From: Olleya sediminilitoris
GTDB taxonomy: Bacteria; Bacteroidota; Bacteroidia; Flavobacteriales; Flavobacteriaceae
Direction of reading: 5' to 3'
NCBI RefSeq assembly: GCF_016785945.1
Contig: NZ_JAEMEF010000008.1
Location: 1-64,000, forward strand
Length of the DNA: 64,000 bases
Part shown: piece after piece, positions 9,452 to 36,224 of the stretch
How positions within the stretch are numbered: position 1 is the first letter of the stretch
Layout: each line of letters opens with the position of its first letter
Made by a program: the position numbers and the translations under genes
Notes under the pieces: model-generated
Databases searched by the model: none
Told to the model about the DNA's origin: nothing
The model's input: the letters and a program-made list of their open reading frames with translations, nothing else

Positions 9452-10145
9452 GTGCAGAAGCTCTTTCTTGATTAACAAATACATCTTCCATAATCACACC
9501 ATCTTTGAGACGCACAATACGTTTACACATATTTGCAATATCCTCTTCATGAGTCACCATTAAGATGGTTTTACCTTCATCGTTTAACGATTGGATAAAA
9601 TCCATAATCTCATAAGATGTTTTAGTATCTAATGCTCCTGTTGGCTCATCTGCCAACAATAATTTTGGATTTGCTGCTAAAGCTCTTGCAATGGCTACAC
9701 GTTGTTTTTGACCACCTGATAATTCGTTAGGCAAATGGTTTGCCCAATTTGCCAATCCCACTTTTTCAAGATGAAATAACGATTTTTCTAAACGCTCTTT
9801 ACGTTTTAGTCCTTGATAATATAGTGGTAGCGCAACATTTTCGATTGCATTTTTATAGTTTATTAAGTTGAATGATTGAAAAATGAATCCTAAAAACTTA
9901 TTTCTATAAATTGCAGCTTTTTTTTCGGTAAGATTTACTATTGGTACACCATCTAAAATGTATTCGCCTTCATCAGCTTCATCTAACATCCCTATAATAT
10001 TAAGTAATGTTGATTTACCAGAACCTGAAGATCCCATAATAGCAACCATTTCTCCTTCTTCTACAGAAAGATCAATTCCTTTTAAAACATGTAGGCTAGA
10101 ATCGCCTATTGGGTAAGACTTATGAAGCTTGCTTATTTTGAGCAT
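9444..10145 (-). CDS. ABC transporter ATP-binding protein, MacB/LolD type
   Basis: This 233-residue protein has all motifs of an ABC ATPase: Walker A GSSGSGKSTLLN (about 37-48), the Q-loop FQSFNLI, signature LSGGQKQRVAIARAL, Walker B LLLADEPTGALD and the H-loop MVTHEE. The length and the DEPTGALD motif are typical of the LolD/MacB subfamily. It is the first gene of the export operon ATPase - permease - permease - adaptor - TolC - tsaB. A perfect 18-bp palindrome lies 64-81 bases upstream of its start and may be the operator of this operon. Confidence 0.95.
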   Translation of the reverse strand: MLKISKLHKSYPIGDSSLHVLKGIDLSVEEGEMVAIMGSSGSGKSTLLNIIGMLDEADEGEYILDGVPIVNLTEKKAAIYRNKFLGFIFQSFNLINYKNAIENVALPLYYQGLKRKERLEKSLFHLEKVGLANWANHLPNELSGGQKQRVAIARALAANPKLLLADEPTGALDTKTSYEIMDFIQSLNDEGKTILMVTHEEDIANMCKRIVRLKDGVIMEDVFVNQERASAHV

Positions 10146-10208
10146 AATGATGGTTTTTTTTGATTGATAAATGACTCAATACAAATAAGACTACTAAGCT
10201 TATAAAAT

Positions 10209-10226
10209 GTTACATAATTATGTAAC
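10209..10226. promoter_or_regulatory. Perfect 18-bp palindrome, candidate operator of the export operon
   Basis: GTTACATAATTATGTAAC is a perfect palindrome (9-bp half-sites) in the 105-base gap between the 76-residue gene (ends 10251) and the ABC ATPase start (10145). Size and position fit a dimeric repressor site such as those of TetR-type regulators, which often control efflux operons. No regulator gene is next to it, and I see no exact TAnnTTTG element in this gap. It lacks a T-run, so it is unlikely to be a terminator. Confidence 0.5.
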
Positions 10227-10250
10227 TATTTTTTAAAATAAATATATTTT

Positions 10251-10481
10251 TTAAATAGTCTTATTCTTTTTTACTTTAAAATATTTCCAATAAATAAAAA
10301 ATCCTAATCCAAAAACTAGGATATAAGGGATTGACATTAGGTACACGATACCATTGTTTATTCCTTTAGCAGCAGTTTGTCCTTCTTCGTTTTCTAAAAC
10401 TGCACGACACATTGCACATTGTGCATTGCTATGGATTGTAAACAACACTGAAATCACTAAAAATGAAATTTTATTTTTCAT
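10251..10481 (-). CDS. Small CxxC membrane protein in the oxidase-assembly operon
   Basis: This 76-residue protein starts at the ATG at 10481. The longer frame to 10547 lies inside the DUF420 gene and lacks a sensible N-terminus. It has a signal peptide or helix (about 4-20), then QCAMCRA with a CxxC pair at about 21-24 right after the predicted cleavage point, a short loop, and one C-terminal helix (about 43-63) ending in a lysine-rich tail. Only two bases separate it from the DUF420 stop. I do not recognise a named family. Location beside SCO and DUF420 suggests a role in oxidase assembly, perhaps metal or thiol chemistry on the periplasmic face; this is inference. Confidence 0.8.
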   Translation of the reverse strand: MKNKISFLVISVLFTIHSNAQCAMCRAVLENEEGQTAAKGINNGIVYLMSIPYILVFGLGFFIYWKYFKVKKNKTI

Positions 10482-10483
10482 AC

Positions 10484-11029
10484 TTAAACGTAATAAGGCG
10501 AAATCATTAAATACACAATAACACCTGTTACTGCAACATACAACCATATAGGGAAAGTTATTTTCGCTATTTTTTTATGACGTTGAAAATTATTTGTAAT
10601 ACCTCTTACATAAGTAATTAACACAAAAGGAATAACTACAATTGATAGTAAAATATGTGTTATTAAAATAAAATAATACACATATTTAATCATGCCTTCT
10701 CCTCCAAACTTAGTTGAATCACTAGTCATGTGATAAGCAACATACATTAATAAAAATAAAACCGATAGACTTATAGCAAACTTCATTAAGTTTTCATGTA
10801 GTTTTTGGTTATTATTTTTAATTGCCCAAACAGCAATTATTAATATCAATGCTGTTAAAGCATTAACACCTGCATAAATTGGAGGTAAAAAAGTTAATGG
10901 TTCTATATTAAAACCAAAATCTTTTAATTTTATAGTAAATAGTATTGCAACTGCAACAGGAATTACAACAGATAAAATGATAATCCACTTATTGTATTTT
11001 TCCTCTCCATTTAGTTTTCTAGTACTCAT
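10484..11029 (-). CDS. DUF420 family membrane protein
   Basis: This 181-residue protein has five predicted membrane helices (about 15-33, 42-65, 78-98, 112-138, 155-177). It matches the DUF420 family (CtaM-like in Bacillus), whose members lie beside cytochrome oxidase genes and are linked to aa3 oxidase assembly. Histidines in the helices (HENLMKFAISLS, AYHMTSDSTKFGG, THILLSI) are the likely conserved positions. It is followed by the small CxxC protein with a 2-base gap and preceded by SCO, forming an oxidase biogenesis operon. Confidence 0.85.
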   Translation of the reverse strand: MSTRKLNGEEKYNKWIIILSVVIPVAVAILFTIKLKDFGFNIEPLTFLPPIYAGVNALTALILIIAVWAIKNNNQKLHENLMKFAISLSVLFLLMYVAYHMTSDSTKFGGEGMIKYVYYFILITHILLSIVVIPFVLITYVRGITNNFQRHKKIAKITFPIWLYVAVTGVIVYLMISPYYV

Positions 11030-11073
11030 AATAGTTATTAATAAATCTGACGGTTATCAGAATAATGTTTTCT

Positions 11074-11820
11074 TTACTCTTGCAATAATTTGGCAATATC
11101 TTCTTTCAAGATAGTAATTTCTTGATCATTTCCATCTTCATCTACTTTTTCCTGCTCACTAATAACGCCTTTGTAAAATATTTTAGGGTTACCAAAGTCA
11201 TCTTGTCTAGATCTTAAATAACCTTCTTTATCCACTAAAGCAAAATCACCAGAATGCTCAAAATTGTCTGTATCAACAAAAATATTAAACCCTATGTTTG
11301 CTAGTTTGTAAATGTCTTCTTTTGCACCAGTCATTAAATGCCAATTGGGATTAGTAACACCATAATCTTCTGCATATGCTTTTAAGACCTCTGGAGTGTC
11401 ATTATCTGGCATAATACTAAAAGAGGCAATACCAAAGTCTTTATGGTCTTTAAAATTGTTTTGAATAACTGTTAGGTTAGAACTCATCCTTGGGCAAATT
11501 GTTGGACATGTCGTAAAAAAGAAATCTACGACATAAACCTGACCTAAGTAATCTTTGTTAGTTATCGTTTTACCGTTTTGATCTGTAAAACTAAACTCTG
11601 GTACTTTTTTACGTTTACCATCTATAACCAAATAGTCCAATCCACTAGTTTTAGTAGACTCTGTATTAGTATTAACAAGTATACCTTCACTTCTGCTTTC
11701 GGCAGCACGATTAATATCTTTGTTATTTATACGATCTATTATTTTTGGAATAAAAATAATACCAAATAATAAGATTATAAATGAAACACCTATGTAAGAA
11801 TAATTTGCCTTTTTGCTCAT
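11074..11820 (-). CDS. SCO1/SenC family copper chaperone for cytochrome oxidase
   Basis: This 248-residue protein has an N-terminal membrane anchor (about 7-26) and a thioredoxin-fold domain. The copper-binding CxxxC motif is visible in FFFTTCPTICPRMSSN (about 104-119), and the distal histidine in NFEHSGDFALVDKEG. SCO proteins deliver copper to, or reduce, the CuA site of oxidase subunit II, in line with the ctaC gene elsewhere in the window. It lies 8 bases after the stop of a Cys-less SCO-like gene and upstream of DUF420. Confidence 0.93.
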   Translation of the reverse strand: MSKKANYSYIGVSFIILLFGIIFIPKIIDRINNKDINRAAESRSEGILVNTNTESTKTSGLDYLVIDGKRKKVPEFSFTDQNGKTITNKDYLGQVYVVDFFFTTCPTICPRMSSNLTVIQNNFKDHKDFGIASFSIMPDNDTPEVLKAYAEDYGVTNPNWHLMTGAKEDIYKLANIGFNIFVDTDNFEHSGDFALVDKEGYLRSRQDDFGNPKIFYKGVISEQEKVDEDGNDQEITILKEDIAKLLQE

Positions 11821-11828
11821 GATACTTA

Positions 11829-12545
11829 TTAATTTAAATCCCCTTTTAAATCGTCAGCACGTCTTGAAGTAGAGTTAAATTCTCCTTTACGCTTTTGTCT
11901 ATACTCAGTAAATAAAACACGCAAATCATCTGCTCCCATCACATTTTTAAGTTGTGCAACTTCGGCAGCATTATAAGCTGTTAAAGGATAAGCTTCACGC
12001 TTGTTTTCTATTTCTTTTTTAGTACGATTATCTAAACGACCACGTTGATCTAATGCCTTATCTATAATAAACACTTTGTTTGTAGAAAGATTAAAATCCA
12101 ATACATCACTTGATCTTAAACTATTAAACATTTTTTTTATATCCGAATCATTTAAATACACAAACTTCCAGTATTTAAGTTCACCATATTTAGTAAGCTC
12201 CTGTTTTAATCTGCCTGCTGCTACTTTTGCTTCTTCAGAAACCAAAGTCACAACTTGAAATTTTTTAAAACCTTGAAACTTATCGTAGATTAATTCTTTA
12301 AGGTTAGACATCTCGACAACTCTAGCTTCTGGATCTTTACCTAAAAAGCCTAATACAGTAATGTAGTCTTTAAATTGAGCTTCAGTGTTTGCTGATGATA
12401 AATTTTGAAGATCTAAGACTTCTGTCTTAACAACTTCTAAAGGATTATAGTTGTTTGTTGAAGGATATAAAAACAATAAAAATATAACTGGAAGAAAAAA
12501 TAAAGCGCTTAGGGTAACTACTTTTTTGATATTTTTTTTATCCAT
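11829..12545 (-). CDS. Membrane-anchored thioredoxin-fold (SCO-like) protein without cysteines
   Basis: This 238-residue protein has one N-terminal helix (about 9-27), then a domain with YITVLGFLGKDPEARVVEMSNLKELIYDKF and FQVVTLVSEEA. The strand-turn-helix order resembles the start of SCO proteins, but there is no CxxxC; I see no cysteine at all. The C-terminus is charged. It is the first gene of the operon with SCO, DUF420 and the 76-residue protein, with its own promoter (12571-12578). Similar to proteins usually called hypothetical in Flavobacteria. A non-catalytic partner of SCO is my inference. Confidence 0.75.
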   Translation of the reverse strand: MDKKNIKKVVTLSALFFLPVIFLLFLYPSTNNYNPLEVVKTEVLDLQNLSSANTEAQFKDYITVLGFLGKDPEARVVEMSNLKELIYDKFQGFKKFQVVTLVSEEAKVAAGRLKQELTKYGELKYWKFVYLNDSDIKKMFNSLRSSDVLDFNLSTNKVFIIDKALDQRGRLDNRTKKEIENKREAYPLTAYNAAEVAQLKNVMGADDLRVLFTEYRQKRKGEFNSTSRRADDLKGDLN

Positions 12546-12570
12546 TTTTATTGTATTTGTAATGAGATTA

Positions 12571-12578
12571 CAAAAATA
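12571..12578 (-). promoter_or_regulatory. Candidate -7 element of the SCO/DUF420 operon
   Basis: TATTTTTG (minus strand) fits TAnnTTTG and lies 26 bases before the ATG at 12545. It overlaps the T-run of the terminator of the preceding oxidase gene, so termination and initiation are packed into about 40 bases. Confidence 0.5.
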
Positions 12579-12579
12579 A

Positions 12580-12607
12580 AAAAGGTGGCTTTAAAAAACC
12601 ACCTTTT
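12580..12607 (-). terminator. Rho-independent terminator after the subunit IV-like gene
   Basis: On the minus strand a 9-bp stem AAAAGGTGG/CCACCTTTT with a 10-base loop is followed by a T-rich tract. It lies 27 bases downstream of the stop of the oxidase subunit IV-like gene. Confidence 0.75.
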
Positions 12608-12633
12608 AACTATAATTTATATTGATAACTGTA

Positions 12634-13014
12634 TTAAAAATCTCTTTTAATAAAACCTTTGTCATAAACGTTAAACACATAACCTCCTTCTTGTAACAAA
12701 ATAAATATTATGTAGCAAATTAAAAAGATACCTGTCCAAACTACAGCACGTCTTAAACCAGGCACTTCATCTCGCATATGCATAAAGTCCCAAGTAATGT
12801 AATATGCTTTTACTATAGTTAAGATTATAAAAATCCAGTTTAAAAGTTTCATACCTAATACCATATTAGTTCCCCAAGATGGCTTGTATATACCTAATAA
12901 AACTTCAACTGCTGTAATAATAGAAAGTAAGATTAAAACTCCCCAAATTTTTTGAGTATTAGATTTAAACTTTACTAATCCTCTAAATATTTCTAATTTA
13001 TGTGCGTCTGCCAT
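12634..13014 (-). CDS. Cytochrome c oxidase subunit IV-like protein
   Basis: This 126-residue protein has three helices (about 21-43, 53-75, 88-110). The pattern fits the prokaryotic COX4 family (CtaF/CoxD type), with VKAYYITWDFMHMRDEV at the second helix, which is typical of this family in Bacteroidota. The gene follows subunit III by 23 bases and ends the oxidase small-subunit cluster at a terminator. Its role is structural support of the heme-copper oxidase; it has no cofactor ligands. Confidence 0.85.
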   Translation of the reverse strand: MADAHKLEIFRGLVKFKSNTQKIWGVLILLSIITAVEVLLGIYKPSWGTNMVLGMKLLNWIFIILTIVKAYYITWDFMHMRDEVPGLRRAVVWTGIFLICYIIFILLQEGGYVFNVYDKGFIKRDF

Positions 13015-13037
13015 GATATATTGTTTCTAAAAAATTA

Positions 13038-14015
13038 TTAAACTAGGTAGAAGAATGTAAATACAAATACCCAAACTAAATCTACAAAGTGCCAGTAAAG
13101 ACCTACTTTTTCAACCATTTCGTAACTTTTACGTCTTTCATACGTACCAAGAACAACATTGAAGAAAATAATAATATTAAGCACTATACCAGAGAATACG
13201 TGAAAACCGTGAAAACCAGTAATAAAGAAAAAGAAGTCTGCAAATAATGGAGATCCATATTCATTTACATGAAGATTAGCACCTTCTACAACAGTTTTAC
13301 CATTCTCTTTTAAAGCTTTTAATGACTCTGTTCTAGATAATACTGTTTTATGTCCTTCTTCATTTAATGTTTGCGTTCTTACTAAAATATTTGAATTGGC
13401 TTCAAAACCAGTTACTACATCATTAATTTGATAAGGCGGTAAAGCATCTTCATCAACAAACCAAAGTCCTTTGCTACGCTCGTGCACTTCTCTTTCAGTA
13501 GGTGTAATTGCAACAAAATCTCTAACTGCAACACGATTACCATCAGTATCTACAAACTGAAGTATATTACCTCCTTTTGTTTGTACTGCACCAAAATCTC
13601 CTTTTATAAATGTATTCCATTCCCAAGCTTGAGAACCAACAAAGATGATACCACCAATGATGGTTAAAAACATGTACCAAGTTACTTTTTTCTTATTTAA
13701 ATGATGTCCAGCATCTACTGCTAATACCATTGTAACTGAAGACATGATTAATACAAACGTCATAAACGCTACATAAATCATTGGATAGTTACCATGAAAA
13801 AATGGAATGTGTGTAAAAACTTCGTCAGCAATTGGCCAAGCATCTATAAATTTGAATCTTGAAAAACCGTAGGCTGCTAAAAACCCAGAGAATGTTAATG
13901 CATCTGATAGGATAAAAAACCACATCATCATCTTACCATAACTTGCCTTTAGTGGTTGGTTACCACCTTCCCAAGTCTTTCCTTCTGTATCAGTAGTTGC
14001 AACTGTAGTATTCAT
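13038..14015 (-). CDS. ctaE: Cytochrome c oxidase subunit III with a long extra loop
   Basis: This 325-residue protein has helices characteristic of subunit III, with the signatures AWEWNTFIKGD (about 130-140), FFFFITGFHGFHVFSG (about 261-276) and the C-terminal WHFVDLVWVFVF. Residues about 137-256 form a long hydrophilic segment between these helices, far larger than the loop in canonical CoxIII, with no motif I recognise. The gene has its own promoter (14045-14052) and is followed by the subunit IV-like gene. The neighbour at 14136 is a second, shorter subunit III homologue. Which one partners the ctaCD oxidase cannot be told from sequence. Confidence 0.92.
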   Translation of the reverse strand: MNTTVATTDTEGKTWEGGNQPLKASYGKMMMWFFILSDALTFSGFLAAYGFSRFKFIDAWPIADEVFTHIPFFHGNYPMIYVAFMTFVLIMSSVTMVLAVDAGHHLNKKKVTWYMFLTIIGGIIFVGSQAWEWNTFIKGDFGAVQTKGGNILQFVDTDGNRVAVRDFVAITPTEREVHERSKGLWFVDEDALPPYQINDVVTGFEANSNILVRTQTLNEEGHKTVLSRTESLKALKENGKTVVEGANLHVNEYGSPLFADFFFFITGFHGFHVFSGIVLNIIIFFNVVLGTYERRKSYEMVEKVGLYWHFVDLVWVFVFTFFYLV

Positions 14016-28317: not shown

Positions 28318-30615
28318 TTAGTTACTATTTTTTATACTTTGCTCTTGCTTTTCTTTTTGCTGAGCATCAATAACTGCAATAGCTGCCATGTTTACAATTT
28401 CGTCTACACTTGCGTGTAATTGTAAAATGTGTGCAGGCTTACGCATACCCATCATTATTGGTCCAATAGATTCTGCTTTATTAAGTTCTTTAAGTAACTT
28501 ATAAGTGATATTTGCAGATTCTAAATTTGGAAAAATTAAAGTGTTTACTTTTTTACCTGCTAGTTTAGAAAACGGAAAACTATCCGATAATAACTGACTA
28601 TTTAAAGCAAAATCTGTTTGTAACTCACCATCTACTAATAAATCTGGATGTCTTTTATGTAAATATGAAACTGCTTCTCTAACCTTTGTTGCGGTTTGGT
28701 CTTTTGATGATCCAAAGTTTGAAAAAGAAGTCATTGCCATAACGGGTTCCATACCAAACATTTTAACCACTTTTGCTGTCATTTGTGCAATTTTAGTTAA
28801 ATCTTGAGCAGATGGGTTAATGTTTATAGCTGTATCACTTAAAAACATTGGTCCACGTTGTGTCATCATCACGTTAGTAGTTGCCACTCTTGTAGATCCT
28901 GGAGCTAAACCAATAAGCTCTAACATTGGTTTTACAACCGAAGGATAACTACGTGTATAACCAGATATTAATGCATCTGCATCACCTTCATTAACCATCA
29001 TAGCTGCATAGTAATTACGCTCTCTCATTAGTTTTTCGGCTAATAACTGAGTGACACCTTTACGCTTACCTTGATCCCAAAACACTTTTGCGTATTTGTT
29101 TTTTTGTTCTAATTGCTCGTCCGATTTTGGATCTATAATTAATACATCTGCATCAAACTCTAGTTCTTCTTTTAAACGTTCGATTTCATCTTTTCTTCCT
29201 AATAAAATAGGGATTGCAACACCTTCTTCATAAACAATTTGAGCTGCTTTTAAAACATCCAATGAGTCTGCCTCTGTAAACACCACACGTTTTGGATTTA
29301 ATTTAGCTCTGTTTAATAGTAGTCTTACAATTTTATTATCACTACCTAGACGGTCTAATAACTCATCTTCATATTTTTGCCAATCTGTTATTGGTTCTTT
29401 AGCAACACCACTATCCATAGCAGCTTTAGCTACTGCAAGAGGCACAGTACTTATTAATCTTGGGTCAAATGGTTTAGGTATGATGTAATCTTTACCAAAT
29501 GCTAACCTTGTCTCTCCATAAGCAATGTTGACTTGTTCTGGCACAGACTCTTTAGCTAATTTAGCCAATGCTTTAACTGCAGCCATTTTCATTTCTTCAT
29601 TTATCTTAGTCGCACGTACATCTAATGCACCACGAAATATAAAAGGAAACCCTAAAACGTTATTAACTTGGTTAGGATGGTCACTACGTCCAGTAGCCAT
29701 AATAATATCTTCTCTGGCATCTATTGCTAGCTCGTAGCTAATTTCTGGGTCTGGATTAGCCATAGCAAAAACAATAGGATTTTTAGCCATAGTTTTTAAC
29801 ATGTCTTGAGATACTAAATCACCAACAGACAGTCCTAAAAAGACATCGCTATCGACCATAGCTTCTGCTAAGCTATTAAACTTTTTATCTGAAGCAAATT
29901 TAAGTTGACTATCTAGTAAATCAGTCCTATCCTTATGTAAAACACCATCTTTATCAAACATGGTAATATTCTCTGGTTTAACACCTAAAGCAGCATATAA
30001 ATTTACACAAGCCATAGCTGCAGATCCTGCTCCAGAGATTACCACTTTTACAGTTTTAATGTCTTTTTCTGCAATTTCTAATGCATTTATTAATGCTGCA
30101 GATGAGATGATTGCTGTACCGTGTTGGTCATCGTGCATAACAGGAATGTCCAACTCTTCTTTTAAACGTCTTTCTATTTCAAAAGCTTCTGGAGCTTTGA
30201 TATCTTCTAGGTTTATACCTCCAAAAGTTGGAGCTATATTTTTTACAGTTTCAATAAACTCTTCAATATTTTCCGTATTAACTTCAATATCAAAAACGTC
30301 AATATCAGCAAATATTTTAAATAGTAAGCCTTTACCTTCCATTACTGGTTTTGATGCCTCAGGTCCAATATTACCTAACCCTAAAACAGCAGTACCATTA
30401 GAGATTACTGCAACTAAGTTTCCTTTGGCTGTATATTTATAAACGTTATTAACGTCTTTTTTAATTTCTAAACAAGGTTCTGCAACACCTGGAGAATAAG
30501 CTAAAGCCAAATCTCTTTGTGATGCATATTTTTTTGTTGGAACAACTTTTATTTTTCCAGGAGTTGGCTTTGCATGATATACTAAAGCCTCACGTCTTCT
30601 ACTTTGTTTGCTCAT
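28318..30615 (-). CDS. maeB: NADP-dependent malic enzyme with phosphotransacetylase-like domain
   Basis: This 765-residue protein has a malic enzyme part (about 1-425) and a phosphate acetyltransferase-like part (about 430-750). The first shows LAYSPGVAEPC, VISNGTAVLGLGNIGPEASKPVMEGK and the NAD(P) fold VVISGAGSAAMACVNLY. The second shows VFTEADSLDVLKAAQ, RNYYAAMMVNEGDADALISG and a SDTAININP-type segment. It decarboxylates malate to pyruvate with NADPH formation; the second domain is thought to be regulatory and is a constant feature of MaeB. Monocistronic, with promoter at 30648-30655. Confidence 0.96.
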   Translation of the reverse strand: MSKQSRRREALVYHAKPTPGKIKVVPTKKYASQRDLALAYSPGVAEPCLEIKKDVNNVYKYTAKGNLVAVISNGTAVLGLGNIGPEASKPVMEGKGLLFKIFADIDVFDIEVNTENIEEFIETVKNIAPTFGGINLEDIKAPEAFEIERRLKEELDIPVMHDDQHGTAIISSAALINALEIAEKDIKTVKVVISGAGSAAMACVNLYAALGVKPENITMFDKDGVLHKDRTDLLDSQLKFASDKKFNSLAEAMVDSDVFLGLSVGDLVSQDMLKTMAKNPIVFAMANPDPEISYELAIDAREDIIMATGRSDHPNQVNNVLGFPFIFRGALDVRATKINEEMKMAAVKALAKLAKESVPEQVNIAYGETRLAFGKDYIIPKPFDPRLISTVPLAVAKAAMDSGVAKEPITDWQKYEDELLDRLGSDNKIVRLLLNRAKLNPKRVVFTEADSLDVLKAAQIVYEEGVAIPILLGRKDEIERLKEELEFDADVLIIDPKSDEQLEQKNKYAKVFWDQGKRKGVTQLLAEKLMRERNYYAAMMVNEGDADALISGYTRSYPSVVKPMLELIGLAPGSTRVATTNVMMTQRGPMFLSDTAININPSAQDLTKIAQMTAKVVKMFGMEPVMAMTSFSNFGSSKDQTATKVREAVSYLHKRHPDLLVDGELQTDFALNSQLLSDSFPFSKLAGKKVNTLIFPNLESANITYKLLKELNKAESIGPIMMGMRKPAHILQLHASVDEIVNMAAIAVIDAQQKEKQEQSIKNSN

Positions 30616-30647
30616 ATCTTATCTTCACTTTAATTTTTAGTGAATTA

Positions 30648-30655
30648 CAAATGTA
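30648..30655 (-). promoter_or_regulatory. Candidate -7 element of maeB
   Basis: TACATTTG (minus strand) matches TAnnTTTG and lies 32 bases before the ATG at 30615. Confidence 0.5.
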
Positions 30656-30903
30656 GTGTTTTTAGAAGAAAACAGGTTTAAAATAAGAGTTGATAAACTG
30701 TAGATTTAAAGATGAAAATATTAATCTTTAAGAAAATTTATATTTTCTTTCTAATACAAAAACTAAGTACACTTTACCGCAAATTGATTAGACACCTTTC
30801 TTAAAGTAACCACATGTTTTTTTATTGTATATTAAATAATTAAAGTTTGGATTATTATATGTCGTTTACCAAAACAATTCCATGAGCTCATATCATGGTA
30901 AAT

Positions 30904-30947
30904 CTCACAACCAAACCTAAAATCAATAATATATATTTGGTTGCGAG
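30904..30947 (-). repeat. 12-bp inverted repeat downstream of the esterase-like gene
   Basis: CTCACAACCAAA and TTTGGTTGCGAG pair at 11 of 12 positions with a 20-base A/T-rich loop. It starts 11 bases after the stop codon of the gene at 30958. It may protect or process the 3' end of the transcript; there is no T-run. Confidence 0.5.
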
Positions 30948-30957
30948 TGTTATAAAT

Positions 30958-33375
30958 CTAATTTTTACCGTTTATTTTTTTGTATAATGTATTAGAGAAT
31001 GAATCCCAGAAATCTTTATTAAATTTTACTCTGCGCAATATTGTTTCATTTTGATGGTGATGATCATAATCAATGACTTCTACATCCTGACTTTCAACAT
31101 CAAAAAGTGAAGAATCTTCGCTAAACATGTAATAATATAATTTGCCTTTATTATTTTTATATTCTAAATATGATTTGTTAAAAAATTCGTATCCATAATA
31201 TTTACCATCATTGTGCTTATTGTAAACACAAGTATTTTCTTCTTTAATTTTTACTTCTTCCAGTTTTCCTGAATATTGCATTCTTGTGTCATAAAATCCA
31301 TATTTTTCTATATCTGTTTTTGTCAAAGTTGTTTCCCAATTTTCAATGATTTTAACAATTGAAAAATCTTCTTTATTAATATAGATTTTACCACTATAGT
31401 TAGTAGGGTAACCACGATTTGTATAATTCCATTTATTTCTATTTGTTTTAAATTGTATAACATAAAGACCTTCGTAATCAGGGTTTTTAGATTTTATAAA
31501 TTCCAAATCAAATTTCTTATATTTTCTACGATGGACTATATTTGAATATCTTAAAGCATTCTGTCTGTATCTCCCTAAAAGTTGATGCGTATTTTTAATT
31601 TTATTTCCAAAATCATTTTTATTCCACTTTATTTGATCGACTCTTCCTGTTGATCTGTTAAGCTGCCTATAACCTTGGTCATATTCTTTTCTTAATAGAT
31701 CAATATCTAATATATCTTTATCATTAATATTAATTTTAACCTTGGTATATTTTTGATAGTTAAAAGGTGTCGTTGGATTATTATTTTTTATATTTCTTAC
31801 AGCTATTTTCATTACTGAAAGCGGTGTTTTATAAGCTTTTATAACTACTTCTTCTAGACTTTCCACACTCGGATTTAAATATATAATATCACTTAGCATA
31901 TTTAGAGGAATTGTTTTGGGTGTAAACCCCATAGAAGAAATATCCACAATGGCATCTTTTTTCATTTGTTTAGAAATAGGTATGGCAAAATTGCCATTTA
32001 TATCACACACTCTGTAGATTTCTTGTTTTTTTAATATGACAGTTGCATAAGGAATGGCTGCTTTAGTTTCTAAATCTATTACTTTACCTTTAAATATTGT
32101 ATTTTCTGTCTTTTTTCTAATTATTTTATTTTCTTTTTGTAACGAATCTAATACTACTGCCTCATATTGATTGTTAATGGTTGATTTTGCTATATAAGGC
32201 TCTGAATCTTTAGCGTGTTTCATAAAAATATAACCATCATGTAATTGGTCTAATCTACTTTCATAAAAGTTTAAATAACTAACTAAGCGATTTTTTCTCT
32301 GAATTTTCATTGATTCTTGGTTAGAGCTCACAAAAAGGTTAGGGATACCTAAATCGACCAATTCATTTTCAAAAGACTTCATCAAAATAGGCGTTTTACT
32401 CCACTTTTTTCTGTATGAAATAGAATCATTTGCATGTAATGTTGCTAAACTATATACGTCATTTCCTAAGCTATTTTTTATATGATTTCCCATTGATACA
32501 AATTTTTGAGATTTAGAATCTTTAATACTAGCAGTACTATTTATTATATGAATATTGTCTGCCCACAGTATTATTTTCTCACTAGGATGACGTTCTATAT
32601 AGCTCAAGATATTATCGCTCATTTGTGCATCTCTAATATTATGTTCTGGAGACAAAAAATCATAAGATGGTGCTTCTTTTGTATTTACATAGGCATCTCT
32701 AGAGGCTGCCAAAACGCCTTTTAAAAATTGTACCCAATAATAATTAAGTTCTGTATTCTTAAAACTTTTTATCTTTTTTATAATACGTTTTAATTCTTTT
32801 TCATAAGCTGAAAATTTCATATCATATTCTTCAAAAGAGTTGTCATTTAAAACGCCTTCCAAAACAATAGCCATATCTTCTTCGTCAAGTTTAATTTTTA
32901 TATTATTACTCTCACAAAAATCAAAGAAATCATCTATAAATTCGTTGGTGTAAGAAATCTGAGAATCAAATCCTATGACTTTTAATTGGTGCTTATCTAT
33001 ATAATTAACAAGACGTTGAAATTCTTTAGTTTTAGACCATACTCCATAAACAGCATTATTAAAATCTACAGGGTTGAAATTTTGATGTAGATTTTTTTTC
33101 CATAAATCATACATCGATGATTCCATAGCAAATGTTGTAAATCCTAATTCTTTATGAAGATATTCTACAACCCGTGTTTTCATTTCAAAAATAGTTCCGT
33201 ATTGATGAGTAAGTTCTCCCAACATGACCATTTTTCTGTCTTTAATTTCCTCTTTCAAAAAACTTAAATCGTCATTATTTTTTGAATTTGATACATTCAA
33301 CTTTTCTATTTTTAGCGTTTGAGCATTATGAAATTGCAGACTAAAAAAAAACATTATTACTAAAATTGTTCTCAT
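30958..33375 (-). CDS. Secreted erythromycin-esterase-like protein fused to CarboxypepD_reg-like domain
   Basis: About 805 residues from the ATG at 33375 (MRTILVIMFFFSLQF, signal peptide ending HNAQ). An upstream ATG at 33399 lies inside the promoter. Residues about 40-390 resemble the erythromycin esterase (EreA/EreB) family: MLGELTHQYG with E54 and H57, FAMESSMYD with E85, and LWADNIHII. A carboxypeptidase regulatory-like beta domain follows (about 430-510: GKVIDLETKAAIPYATVIL, DINGNFAIP). The last 300 residues (IAVRNIKNNNP onward) resemble the extension seen behind CarboxypepD_reg in other Bacteroidota surface proteins. Being exported, it is unlikely to be a classical macrolide resistance enzyme. 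Divergent from an AraC regulator. Base composition is more AT-rich than nearby core genes. Confidence 0.8.
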   Translation of the reverse strand: MRTILVIMFFFSLQFHNAQTLKIEKLNVSNSKNNDDLSFLKEEIKDRKMVMLGELTHQYGTIFEMKTRVVEYLHKELGFTTFAMESSMYDLWKKNLHQNFNPVDFNNAVYGVWSKTKEFQRLVNYIDKHQLKVIGFDSQISYTNEFIDDFFDFCESNNIKIKLDEEDMAIVLEGVLNDNSFEEYDMKFSAYEKELKRIIKKIKSFKNTELNYYWVQFLKGVLAASRDAYVNTKEAPSYDFLSPEHNIRDAQMSDNILSYIERHPSEKIILWADNIHIINSTASIKDSKSQKFVSMGNHIKNSLGNDVYSLATLHANDSISYRKKWSKTPILMKSFENELVDLGIPNLFVSSNQESMKIQRKNRLVSYLNFYESRLDQLHDGYIFMKHAKDSEPYIAKSTINNQYEAVVLDSLQKENKIIRKKTENTIFKGKVIDLETKAAIPYATVILKKQEIYRVCDINGNFAIPISKQMKKDAIVDISSMGFTPKTIPLNMLSDIIYLNPSVESLEEVVIKAYKTPLSVMKIAVRNIKNNNPTTPFNYQKYTKVKININDKDILDIDLLRKEYDQGYRQLNRSTGRVDQIKWNKNDFGNKIKNTHQLLGRYRQNALRYSNIVHRRKYKKFDLEFIKSKNPDYEGLYVIQFKTNRNKWNYTNRGYPTNYSGKIYINKEDFSIVKIIENWETTLTKTDIEKYGFYDTRMQYSGKLEEVKIKEENTCVYNKHNDGKYYGYEFFNKSYLEYKNNKGKLYYYMFSEDSSLFDVESQDVEVIDYDHHHQNETILRRVKFNKDFWDSFSNTLYKKINGKN

Positions 33376-33396
33376 ATATATTGTTTTTATTTTGAA

Positions 33397-33429
33397 CAAA
33401 TCTAAAACGAATAATCAGTAGTATACAAA
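33397..33429 (-). promoter_or_regulatory. Promoter of the esterase-like gene
   Basis: TAGATTTG at 33397-33404 (minus strand) matches TAnnTTTG; TTTG at 33426-33429 is a possible -33 element with a 21-base spacer. The -7 element overlaps the upstream ATG at 33399, so the ATG at 33375 is the start. Confidence 0.55.
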
Positions 33430-33439
33430 AGAACTAAAT

Positions 33440-33458
33440 GTGTTTTCTATGAAAACGC
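33440..33458. promoter_or_regulatory. Inverted repeat between divergent promoters, candidate regulator site
   Basis: GTTTTC-TAT-GAAAAC (33442-33456), with partial extension on both sides, lies just upstream of the -33 position of the esterase-like promoter and about 85 bases before the regulator promoter. This is where an AraC-type activator would be expected to bind. AraC proteins often prefer direct repeats, so the assignment is tentative. Confidence 0.35.
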
Positions 33459-33542
33459 AGAACAAAAACGTCACGCATATAACTGAAAATTAAACGATTA
33501 CAACCGCACTGTTTTTTCACACTGTTATTAACTATATTTAGA

Positions 33543-33550
33543 TATTTTTG
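33543..33550 (+). promoter_or_regulatory. Candidate -7 element of the TPR-AraC gene
   Basis: TATTTTTG matches TAnnTTTG. It overlaps a TTG at 33548 which would otherwise be the furthest upstream start, so translation must begin downstream, at the ATG at 33569. Confidence 0.55.
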
Positions 33551-33568
33551 TACCTTATTAAAGTTTTA

Positions 33569-35296
33569 ATGGCTCTTTTTAAAACCTCAAAGCATATCAA
33601 AATAATTATATCAATGGGTCTGTTCTTTATGATTATTCAATCATATGCACAATCTTTGCCCACAATAGACTCTTTAGTAAACAAAAGTTATATTTATTTA
33701 GAAAAAATCTATTATACAAAAGAATATACTGACTCAGGAAAAAAATATTTGAATGCTTATATTAGAAAAGCAAAATTAGAAGATAATATAATAGAAATTA
33801 TTACAGGTTATCATCTATATGCAGACTATTATGATAACACCTATAGTATCGCTACTAAATATATTGATAGTGCCATTACACTTGCTAAAACCAATAAAAT
33901 TAAAACTAAATCTTATCCTGCAAGATTATATGGTAAAAAAGGTTATATAGAGCGTGTAGAAGGTAATTTTAAACGAGCTATAGATTATTATTTAAAAGAA
34001 ATAGAGCTACTATATCCAGAAAACAAAACTCTTATAAACTATAGCAATTATAACATAGGTCTTATTAAAAGGGATTATGGAGATATTGAAGGTGCTAAAT
34101 CCATTCTTAAAAAAAATTTAGAATATGATATTGAGAAATTAGAAAAGTATCCAAAAGATTATTTAGAGACTTATTTATATACCGTACATGAGTTAGTTAG
34201 AACCTATCGTCTAAATAAAGAAATTGATTCAGCTAAGTCATTAAACCTTCAAGAACTAAAAAAAGCAATAAATACTAAAAATTTGGGGTATCTTTTCACT
34301 CTTAATGATGGTATAATTGATTGTATTAACAAGGACTATAACAGTAGTATCTCTAAATTAACTCCCATACTATCTAAACTGCACAATTCAAACGATCGTT
34401 ATAATTTTGAAATATATAATTTAATTGATGCTTATTTCTATTTAGGAAAATCTCATGACGCTTTATCAAATGATAAAATGAAACTCTATTATTACAAAAA
34501 GATAGACTCATTAGCAGAAGCGACCAATTATCTGACTCCAGAAACCAAAAAGGTCTATTTTAGTTTAGCACTTCATTATAAAAAAAGTGGTAACAATAAA
34601 GAACAGCTTAAATATCTTACAAAAGGAATCAAAATTGACAGTATTTTAGACACAAATTATAAATACGTTAATAGTCAACTTGAATCAAATTATGATATTC
34701 CTGAACTCATAAAAGAGCAAAAAAAACTTATATCTGTTTTGAAGCAGGAAAATGTTAAATCTTCAAAAAAACAGATTCTATTTTTTAGCCTTTTAATATT
34801 AAGTGTTACAGGGTTAGGATATTTTTATTTAAGACAAAAACTTTATAAAAAAAGGTTTAAGGCATTACTTAAAAAAAACGAATCAAATTCAAAAAAGGAA
34901 AAAAAACCATCATTAAAAATAAATAAACAACTTCTTAATATACCAGAAGAGACTGCATCACATATTATTTCTAAGCTTAATGAGTTTGAAGAAAATAAAT
35001 ATTTCCTAAAAACAAATTTAACGCTAAATAAATTATCTAAACGTTTTAAAACTAATTCTAAATACCTTGCTATTGTTCTCAAAAACACAAAAGGAAAAGG
35101 AGTAAGTCAATATATCAATGATTTACGCATTAATTATGTTATCGTTAAACTTGAAAGTGATATAAAATTTAGAAGATATACTATAAAAGCTATTGCTAAA
35201 GAGGTTGGCTTTAATACAGACCAAGCTTTTTCTAAAGCTTTTTATAAAAAAACGGGTATTTACCCATCTTACTTTATTAAAGAGTTAAATAAATAG
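33569..35296 (+). CDS. Membrane-anchored TPR sensor with AraC-type DNA-binding domain
   Basis: About 575 residues from the ATG at 33569 (MALFKTSKHIKIIISMGLFFM). A signal peptide or first helix (about 10-28) is followed by a helical TPR-like region (about 30-385) with repeats such as ARLYGKKGYIERVEGNFKRAIDYYLKEI, a second helix (about 395-415, ILFFSLLILSVTGLGYFYL), a lysine-rich linker and a C-terminal double helix-turn-helix of the AraC family (about 475-575: IKAIAKEVGFNTDQAFSKAFYKKTGIYPSYF). This architecture puts the TPRs in the periplasm and the DNA-binding part in the cytoplasm, as in many Flavobacteria. Divergent from the esterase-like gene and convergent with queG. Confidence 0.85.
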   Translation: MALFKTSKHIKIIISMGLFFMIIQSYAQSLPTIDSLVNKSYIYLEKIYYTKEYTDSGKKYLNAYIRKAKLEDNIIEIITGYHLYADYYDNTYSIATKYIDSAITLAKTNKIKTKSYPARLYGKKGYIERVEGNFKRAIDYYLKEIELLYPENKTLINYSNYNIGLIKRDYGDIEGAKSILKKNLEYDIEKLEKYPKDYLETYLYTVHELVRTYRLNKEIDSAKSLNLQELKKAINTKNLGYLFTLNDGIIDCINKDYNSSISKLTPILSKLHNSNDRYNFEIYNLIDAYFYLGKSHDALSNDKMKLYYYKKIDSLAEATNYLTPETKKVYFSLALHYKKSGNNKEQLKYLTKGIKIDSILDTNYKYVNSQLESNYDIPELIKEQKKLISVLKQENVKSSKKQILFFSLLILSVTGLGYFYLRQKLYKKRFKALLKKNESNSKKEKKPSLKINKQLLNIPEETASHIISKLNEFEENKYFLKTNLTLNKLSKRFKTNSKYLAIVLKNTKGKGVSQYINDLRINYVIVKLESDIKFRRYTIKAIAKEVGFNTDQAFSKAFYKKTGIYPSYFIKELNK

Positions 35297-35297
35297 C

Positions 35298-36224
35298 CTA
35301 GCTATTCAAAAATTTAATATTTCGGGTTAAACCCGAATATTTAGTACGTTTTACAGCCGATTTTTGAAACACCTTTTTAAAAACATCTTCAGTTATTTCT
35401 TGCCAATCTTTTTTTGTCATTGTTAATAAATCTGGATCAGGATTAAATAACGGTTGATTATGTGGTTTAGAAAACTTATTCCAAGGACAAACATCCTGAC
35501 AAACATCACACCCAAAAATCCAATCGTCAAATTTAGATTTCATTGTGTTAGGTAATTGATCTTTAAGTTCAATAGTAAAATAACTAATACATTTACTACC
35601 ATCTACAACATAAGGATCTACAATTGCTTGTGTTGGACAGGCATCAATGCATGCTGTACAAGTACCACAATGGTCTGTTACTGGTGTATCATAATCCAAC
35701 TCTAAGTCAATAATAAGTTCTGCAATAAAATAAAACGAACCCACTTTTTGAGTTAATAAATTACTGTGTTTACCTATCCAACCTAAACCTGATTTTGCAG
35801 CCCAAGCTTTATCTAAAACTGGAGCCGAATCCACAAAAGCACGTCCAGAAACCTCTCCAATATGTTCTTGGATAAATTGTGATAATTGTTTTAATTTAGA
35901 TTTTATGACATGATGATAATCATACCCATACGCATACTTAGACACTTTATAGGTATCATTTATTTGTTGTTGTTCAGGATAATAATTTAATAACAATGAT
36001 ATCACAGACTTTGAATCCTCTACTAATTTTGTTGGATCCAAACGCTTGTCAAAATGATTTTGCATGTAATCCATTTGACCATTCATATTATTGTTTAACC
36101 AACGTTCTAATCTTGGCGCTTCTTCTTCTAAAAATTTAGCTTTACTGATACCACAAGACAAAAAACCTAAACGTTTAGCCTCATCCTTAATTAGATTAGT
36201 ATACTTAGTTTTATTATTAAGCAT
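35298..36224 (-). CDS. queG: Epoxyqueuosine reductase
   Basis: This 308-residue protein reduces epoxyqueuosine to queuosine in tRNA with cobalamin and two [4Fe-4S] clusters. The catalytic aspartate sits in [28 protein letters not shown] (about 135-160), and the clusters bind [16 protein letters not shown] and [11 protein letters not shown]. Length is slightly shorter than E. coli QueG (379) because it lacks the C-terminal HEAT-like part. Its ATG shares one base with the stop of the P450 gene (TAATG), so the two are coupled. Confidence 0.95.

Follow-up and report, generated by a model that had tools for sequence, protein, structure and literature searches.

A divergent gene pair in Olleya sediminilitoris, encoding an exported erythromycin-esterase-like fusion protein and a membrane regulator, as a candidate orphan cassette related to lanthipeptide clusters

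Exported hydrolases that work together with a sensor in non-producing bacteria are exemplified by the nisin resistance protein (NSR), an S41 peptidase that acts with a two-component system in Gram-positive bacteria. The RRNPP peptide-pheromone regulators couple tetratricopeptide repeats (TPR) to a DNA-binding domain near peptide genes. To our knowledge, little is known about self-protection and cluster regulation in Gram-negative lanthipeptide producers. Here, we analyzed a 64,000-nucleotide stretch of the Olleya sediminilitoris genome (contig NZ_JAEMEF010000008.1, positions 1 to 64,000; hereafter the window), which carries a divergent gene pair. One gene encodes an exported fusion of an erythromycin esterase (Ere) domain, a CarboxypepD_reg domain and a C-terminal domain that we call LolA/LolB-like (the enzyme), and the other a predicted one-component regulator composed of a TPR part, a transmembrane segment and an AraC domain (the regulator). 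Ere domains, LolA-like folds, TPR-AraC regulators and lanthipeptide clusters are all of kinds already known.

Among described enzymes, the closest to the window enzyme are EreA, EreB, EreC and EreD (PF05139), with which it shares the fold and all five key residues of EreC. It differs from them in its signal sequence, its two further domains and the lack of an EreB equivalog score, and in that some of its relatives neighbor lanthipeptide genes. NSR resembles the pair in its working only, as its fold and regulator are unrelated to those found here. Unlike in the RRNPP regulators, the TPR part of the window regulator is predicted to be periplasmic and is joined across the membrane to an AraC domain, and its peptide binding is putative. 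Passages of one study refer to regulation after pheromone binding for TPR-like genes in Bacteroidales clusters of ribosomally synthesized and post-translationally modified peptides (RiPPs) (PMC10352776). In another, whose relevant section concerns a graspetide (ATP-grasp RiPP) locus, the authors propose that an Ere homolog there serves peptide modification or resistance (PMC8939145). As described in that section, this locus likewise places an Ere-like gene in a RiPP setting, but it is gammaproteobacterial and contains a double-glycine peptidase, whereas the setting described below is that of Bacteroidota class I lanthipeptides, with an exported fusion and a TPR-AraC partner.

Both open reading frames (ORFs) of the pair reported in an earlier note on this DNA are real (30958-33399, minus strand; 33548-35296, plus strand), and their likelier ATG starts are given in Table 1. 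The enzyme matches the Erythro_esteras family (PF05139) at 73 bits (cut-off 26.4), and a family profile of 17 sequences matches EreC (6XCQ) at 1.2e-11. In this profile comparison, residues E54, H57, E85, R248 and H276 align with E47, H50, E78, R261 and H289 of EreC, the roles of which are treated in part of PMC7979712. The earlier note had read the E and H residues of this set from the motifs GELTHQ, FAMES and WADNIH. All five residues are invariant in an alignment of 57 sequences (A4), which comprises the window enzyme and 56 of the 65 fused ORFs of named loci. In a fuller set of 74 fused rows, which takes in the remaining nine, the residues are kept in 73; the other row is a fragment that does not reach them. 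The signs are that the enzyme is a competent water-activating hydrolase. The CarboxypepD_reg-like domain expected behind the Ere domain matches CarbopepD_reg_2 (PF13715) at 41.8 bits (cut-off 32.2), with a weak Foldseek match to a transthyretin-like domain (5aq0, E 1.3e-3). ChaN/Tiki (PF04187) scores 23.4 bits (E 6.6e-5), under its cut-off of 27.7, which indicates a related superfamily only. In the signal region Q19 is invariant in the 57 sequences, and we saw no lipobox cysteine by eye. The window genome contains no second full-length homolog at E <= 0.001; two other matches cover the CarboxypepD_reg part only.

Table 1. Positions in the window of the gene pair, its domains and the bordering elements.
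Feature	Position	Strand	Basis
Exported Ere, CarboxypepD_reg and LolA-like fusion, 805 aa from ATG 33375, stop codon to 30958	30961..33375	-	ORF, Pfam, alignment, model
Signal sequence, residues 1 to ~20	33316..33375	-	By eye and alignment A4
Erythro_esteras domain, Pfam residues 75-406	32158..33153	-	Pfam; fold begins nearer the N terminus
CarbopepD_reg_2 domain, residues 429-512	31840..32091	-	Pfam; part of the family without it
C-terminal domain, called LolA/LolB-like, residues 511-805 (295 residues)	30961..31845	-	Model and structure comparison
TPR, transmembrane and AraC one-component regulator, 575 aa from ATG 33569	33569..35296	+	ORF, Pfam, homologs
Transmembrane segment, residues ~402-421	34772..34831	+	By eye
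HTH_18 (AraC) DNA-binding domain, residues 489-570	35033..35278	+	Pfam
Presumed Bacteroidota-type promoter of the enzyme gene, TTTG-N21-TAnnTTTG	33397..33429	-	Motif match; same spacing in G068
Probable decayed queG 3' end copy, bordering the inserted pair on the maeB side	30733..30826	-	Pairwise alignment
Intact queG 3' end matching the decayed copy, bordering the inserted pair on the regulator side	35309..35397	-	Pairwise alignment

To place the enzyme in its genomic context, we collected relatives by an alignment-based scan of genome contigs, the best 80 of 234 matches giving 79 loci; a scan with a single protein yielded 17 pattern matches and no relative. We refer below to 71 non-redundant loci of fused enzymes. 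This set excludes the window, eight contigs duplicated under G handles (L075, L078, L084, L094, L105, L106, L107 and L126) and the stand-alone or fragmentary cases L056 and L070-L073; by tree distance, L054/L077, L133/L143 and L135/L138 remain in it as near-copies. Clustering of the neighboring genes revealed LanB, LanC, a C39-type ABC exporter and HlyD. LanB and LanC occur together at six of the 71 loci, in a Croceivirga metagenome-assembled genome (L086), Flavobacterium P3160 (L095), F. collinsii (L098), Pedobacter R20-19 (L109), Flavobacterium LPB0248 (L111) and Flammeovirga OC4 (L122). Pfam confirms every lan-type protein tested at these loci (8/8, then 10/10), including LanB and LanC in each. 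A full-length exporter and HlyD are found in five of the six (not L086) by home-made profiles. These profiles, also used for the 17 Flavobacteriaceae LanB loci below, derive from the linked loci and pick up some ordinary ABC proteins as 'PCAT'; the C39 domain is Pfam-confirmed in the two exporters tested (L095 and L111).

At all six loci the enzyme gene lies on the same strand as LanB and LanC, and 0-81 bp separate it from the closest lan or precursor gene. In L095, L098 and L111 it follows the LanB C-terminal gene by 0-4 bp, in L109 it ends 1 bp before LanC, in L086 it ends 81 bp before LanB, and in L122 it lies ~63-78 bp upstream of a precursor gene. Precursor genes adjoin the enzyme gene at all six loci and at a seventh, L112 (Reichenbachiella), and nine of nine precursors tested at the seven loci score above the leader cut-off of NF038153 (28.5-53.2 bits; cut-off 22). 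L112 contains two tandem pairs (9722-13666), in each of which a precursor gene stands directly upstream of an Ere-family gene, one stand-alone and one fused, with no LanB in the 22.9 kb examined. From 17 LanB genes in 199 Flavobacteriaceae genomes (~0.085 per genome) and 20 kb of ~3.8 Mb, a calculation by hand gives a chance expectation of ~0.03 LanB-linked loci among 71; at one LanB per genome it would be 0.36 (p 2e-6). The seven linked enzymes are scattered on the tree, with 6 label changes, at least 4 of them forced by starred branches (a quick method, with some long branches), and the L086 enzyme shares a starred clade of 15 rows with the window enzyme.

The placement of the gene directly beside precursor genes in the middle of lan operons, and the two precursor-Ere pairs of L112 in DNA where no LanB was seen, would also suit a finishing step, namely trimming or de-esterification of the exported peptide by the exported enzyme, with orphan copies working in trans or on different peptides. 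We consider such a maturation role unlikely, as no lan genes accompany 64 of the 71 fused enzymes in the DNA examined, LanB and LanC were not found in the genomes of the window and of G068, the genome with the most similar pair (see below), and five of the six clusters contain a full-length C39-type exporter, a protein that normally removes the leader.

The regulator family is linked to lanthipeptide genes on its own account. The window regulator matches HTH_18 at 40.9 bits (cut-off 33.6), which bears out the AraC part of the membrane TPR-AraC regulator described in the earlier note; its transmembrane segment and N-terminal signal were read by eye, and no Pfam TPR family scores above cut-off on the window protein. 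TPR_12 (cut-off 30.1) reaches 27.2 bits on a homolog 58% identical to it, 22.6 on one 55% identical and 32.6 on the homolog in L095. The neighbors of TPR-AraC homologs include small divergent genes with lanthipeptide-like leaders, or a LanB C-terminal gene directly upstream; the two upstream neighbor proteins tested are unequivocally Lant_dehydr_C. Of 39 regulators, a sample restricted to the best-scoring places (20 stretches together with G068, G296, the window and L095, which came in by way of its enzyme), 17 have a precursor-like ORF or LanB within 3 kb. G296, whose regulator (55%) is the third member of the window regulator's subclade, has a precursor-like ORF downstream that is unmatched by NCBIfam, and its regulator gene faces an aspartyl-protease-like gene. 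Full-length homologs (~29-35% identical) lie inside nine of 17 Flavobacteriaceae LanB loci. At the level of genomes, a TPR-AraC homolog occurs in 15 of 17 LanB-bearing and 25 of 182 LanB-free genomes (Fisher p 3e-10, with no correction for relatedness or genome size; table compiled by hand, the 199 genomes taken as G000, G008 and G010-G206). In L095 a single locus holds two divergent LanB sets, a TPR-AraC gene (35% identical over 581 aa) and a fused enzyme.

Several further features of the regulator family were observed. Arrays of TPR-AraC genes occur in single genomes, with seven matches in L202 (one cut by the end of the stretch) and six in L204. Other homologs face genes for a beta-lactamase family protein (L213:3829-5037), a PagL lipid A deacylase (L214:6577-7674) and an aspartyl protease (L195:6983-8230). 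Small proteins of 109-125 aa that look helix-turn-helix-like by eye are encoded upstream of a precursor gene (L112:9299-9676) and divergently from a TPR-AraC gene (L204:4264-4593).

The window genome itself appears to be that of a non-producer. No LanB was found in it (17 of 199 Flavobacteriaceae genomes were positive in the same search), and no LanC (G296 and G086 were positive in the same search). No credible precursor was found either, the one leader match being below cut-off and with internal stops; a search for Lant_dehydr_C was also negative in the window genome, but it matched no control. In G068, too, neither LanC nor a leader match was found, and it is not one of the genomes with a LanB match.

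Because each gene family has its own link to class I lanthipeptide clusters, a ribosomal modified peptide is the better-supported context for the pair. The earlier note had suggested a cyclic ester or a peptidoglycan- or lipid-linked compound as the substrate; the relatives point to lanthipeptides instead, while a lipid or hydrophobic ligand is possible given the resemblance of the C-terminal domain to LolA/LolB. Considering the domain make-up, the conserved catalytic set, the lanthipeptide linkage of each family, the LanB and LanC genes not found here and the filled gap between the two flanking core genes, we tentatively favor the reading that the pair is a laterally acquired orphan sensor/hydrolase cassette related to lanthipeptide clusters, comprising an inducible peptide sensor and an exported peptide-inactivating hydrolase. 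The small sensing-and-response module suggested earlier is plausible in that an exported Ere fusion faces a membrane regulator, although a conserved adjacency of the two genes was almost wholly missing (see below).

For this cassette we infer a localization, peptide sensing, a substrate, hydrolysis and an immunity role, which would fit together as follows. The periplasmic TPR domain would detect an exported peptide, either a neighbor's lanthipeptide or the damage from it. The signal would cross the membrane, and the AraC domain would switch on the divergent enzyme gene through its Bacteroidota-type promoter. Once the enzyme is exported, the LolA/LolB-like domain would hold the hydrophobic peptide, or a lipid-bound form of it, and the Ere domain would hydrolyze a bond in the peptide through the putative water-activating set E54/H57/E85/H276 with R248. 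In producers this would provide self-immunity, and in non-producers such as the window genome, resistance. Immunity or resistance is most likely the role of the cassette by analogy with orphan immunity genes and with the proposal made in the relevant section of PMC8939145. A broader version, possible but doubtful, is that Bacteroidota control and survive class I lanthipeptides by an undescribed two-part kit, in which a one-component sensor with a periplasmic TPR part, a membrane segment and a cytoplasmic AraC domain perceives the peptide and an exported Ere-LolA-like hydrolase captures and inactivates it; the window would then hold an orphan, portable form of the kit, through which a non-producer gains inducible resistance.

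A number of observations weigh against the cassette reading. Known Ere enzymes hydrolyze esters, whereas lanthipeptides are thioether peptides. The DNA examined at 64 of the 71 fused-enzyme loci contains no LanB, LanC or precursor-pattern ORF; the family may thus mainly serve another function, one borrowed by lanthipeptide clusters. A fused enzyme was found in none of the 17 Flavobacteriaceae LanB loci, for which some stretches stop at contig ends; with the unlinked majority, this means that the linkage is real but far from universal. The base rate used above is that of Flavobacteriaceae, to which four of the six linked loci belong, the other two being in other families. On the regulator side, 22 of the 39 TPR-AraC genes lack both LanB and a precursor-like ORF within 3 kb, and among eight small ORFs facing such genes, six match NF038153 at only 14.8-21.0 bits, under the cut-off of 22, and two have no match. 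Finally, no precursor-pattern ORF was found at the window and G068 loci.

The enzyme could also be a detoxifying esterase for foreign lactone or ester compounds of a macrolide-like kind, in which case the lanthipeptide vicinity would reflect incidental clustering of mobile antimicrobial-related genes. The complete EreC catalytic set is consistent with this, as is the fold: the full-length model (pLDDT 87.2, pTM 0.78) matches 3b55 at 1.2e-19 and EreC at 2.7e-16 in Foldseek. The fused gene also seems mobile elsewhere, with a 2.5-kb stretch 99.3% identical in G006 and Lacinutrix algicola; among the five best matches listed for the two stretches, the next four are repeated elements of ~1.3 kb and one of 116 bp. 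Against this stand the score of 37.1 bits for the EreB equivalog (NF000209, NCBIfam; cut-off 750), the signal sequence, which contrasts with the cytoplasmic resistance Eres, and a repeated co-operonic linkage to LanB and LanC in three bacterial families that is hard to call incidental. We therefore regard a detoxifying esterase as an improbable account. The EreB score in particular supports the view, already taken in the earlier note, that the enzyme is an exported Ere-family fusion other than a standard macrolide esterase.

The roughly 300-residue extension behind the CarboxypepD_reg domain is a domain of its own. Modeled alone from 59 sequences, it reaches a pLDDT of 91.1 and a pTM of 0.90. 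By sequence, residues 511-805 of the window enzyme have no Pfam match, the 59 members of alignment A3 give scattered weak Pfam matches only (best E 0.0043, at most three members per family), and a comparison with the PDB gave no convincing match. A Foldseek search with the domain model yielded nothing at E <= 0.001. In a VIA search, P. gingivalis LolB (9tpm) aligned with Z 9.6 over 182 residues at a root-mean-square deviation (rmsd) of 4.0 and 8% identity, and P. gingivalis LolA3 (9tp6) with Z 9.5 over 190 residues, rmsd 4.9 and 6% identity. The top ranks also include a LolA-type Vibrio protein and a DUF1329 protein, with LolA and LprG entries lower down, interleaved with porins. On the strength of this modeled fold we call the domain LolA/LolB-like, leaving superfamily membership aside. 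It differs from these P. gingivalis proteins in the 6-8% identity, the missing sequence match and its fusion behind a hydrolase.

The C-terminal module is matched in 27 of 198 genomes of the phylum. Without an Ere domain, it occurs alone, fused to thioredoxin-like domains or overlapping DUF5686 proteins. The window genome encodes a stand-alone exported CarboxypepD_reg and LolA-like protein of 417 aa (G000:C8:53936-54787; L197:8889-10142). A stand-alone gene of the same make-up (L098:17471-18730) lies 23 bp after HlyD and closes the F. collinsii lanthipeptide operon, in which a fused enzyme is also present; this suggests that the LolA-like module may itself have a part in lanthipeptide export. 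An envelope-lipid or lipoprotein housekeeping hydrolase, whose LolA-like domain would bind a lipid or lipoprotein while the Ere domain cuts an acyl ester under an envelope-stress-sensing TPR-AraC regulator, would suit this domain, its occurrence elsewhere as a general envelope module and the one TPR-AraC relative that faces a PagL gene, but is quite improbable for a fused protein so patchy within the genus and fits lanthipeptide operons poorly too.

The pair lies in a genome (G000) of 3.4 Mb, on contig C36, whose relatives include Flavobacteriaceae. It is flanked on the minus strand by a gene that we take to be maeB (28318-30615) and by queG (35298-36224; named from Pfam). In six of nine other genus members (G003, G004, G005, G006, G008 and G009) the queG and maeB matches are only 91-193 bp apart, whereas the gap in the window measures 4.7 kb and contains the enzyme/regulator pair only. 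G001 and G002 have other cargo in this gap, and in G007 it is split over contigs. On the maeB side, the probable decayed copy of the 3' end of this gene (alignment score 53, compared with at most 42 in 200 shuffles) at the border of the pair, matching the end of queG, suggests that the pair was inserted at the 3' end of queG. This copy is absent from the repeat-finder output at the settings used, and no integrase-like ORF was noticed between the insertion borders. The maeB-queG spacer (window 30616-35300; L242, L243 and L244) resembles an insertion hotspot. Its cargo of ~8 kb in G002 and ~27 kb in G001 consists of apparent sugar-use loci (LacI-like, SusC-like and PfkB-like, named by eye). In G006, queG (G006:C1:2129154-2130077) is covered by three overlapping match pieces, one of them with internal stops, and may be frame-broken.

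Between the two genes, the earlier note had seen two good promoters and an inverted repeat, and neither is borne out. A scan for sigma-70-type promoters gave three sites, compared with 2.4 +/- 1.5 in shuffled sequence, which is chance level. The inverted repeats are weak (9-13 nt, 82-89%), and by eye none recurs in the list for the relative. We found instead one match to TTTG-N21-TAnnTTTG, which we take to be a Bacteroidota-type promoter, upstream of the enzyme gene; the whole window contains eight matches of this type on both strands.

Fused enzymes occur in Flavobacteriaceae, Hymenobacteraceae, Sphingobacteriaceae, Flammeovirgaceae, Marinifilaceae and others, and the distribution is patchy, with the fused protein in two of ten genomes of the genus. 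A CarboxypepD_reg match is present in 44 of the 65 fused ORFs of named loci, and one Flavobacterium branch is without it. A conserved adjacency of enzyme and TPR-AraC genes across Bacteroidota, which the earlier note had proposed to count and whose lack it named as refuting, is rejected: among the 71 fused-enzyme loci, only G068 has a TPR-AraC gene as the divergent immediate neighbor. Its enzyme is 62% identical to that of the window over the Ere domain, and its regulator 58%. At the G088 locus (L066/L107) a different AraC gene, of 341 aa, faces the enzyme. Two fused enzyme genes are split over two ORFs (L081:9983-12369 and L063:7036-9005), which suggests decay of an accessory gene.

We searched the open-licence PubMed Central (PMC) literature by titles and the starts of abstracts, and found nothing on Ere proteins in Bacteroidota lanthipeptide clusters, no exported Ere-LolA-like fusion as a component of a lan operon and no orphan pairing of such an enzyme with a TPR-AraC regulator. 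In the sections retrieved from PMC9716278 the terms 'lanthipeptide' and 'erythromycin esterase' occur in unrelated places, and the retrieved text of PMC10112250, on a pinensin-like cluster, contains neither 'esterase' nor 'AraC'.

Our analysis ties two families to lanthipeptide clusters, one of hydrolases named after antibiotic esterases and the other of one-component regulators. If the proposed reading is true, many 'erythromycin esterase' annotations in Bacteroidota would denote enzymes of peptide immunity rather than genes for macrolide resistance, and the regulator would offer a handle for switching on silent clusters.

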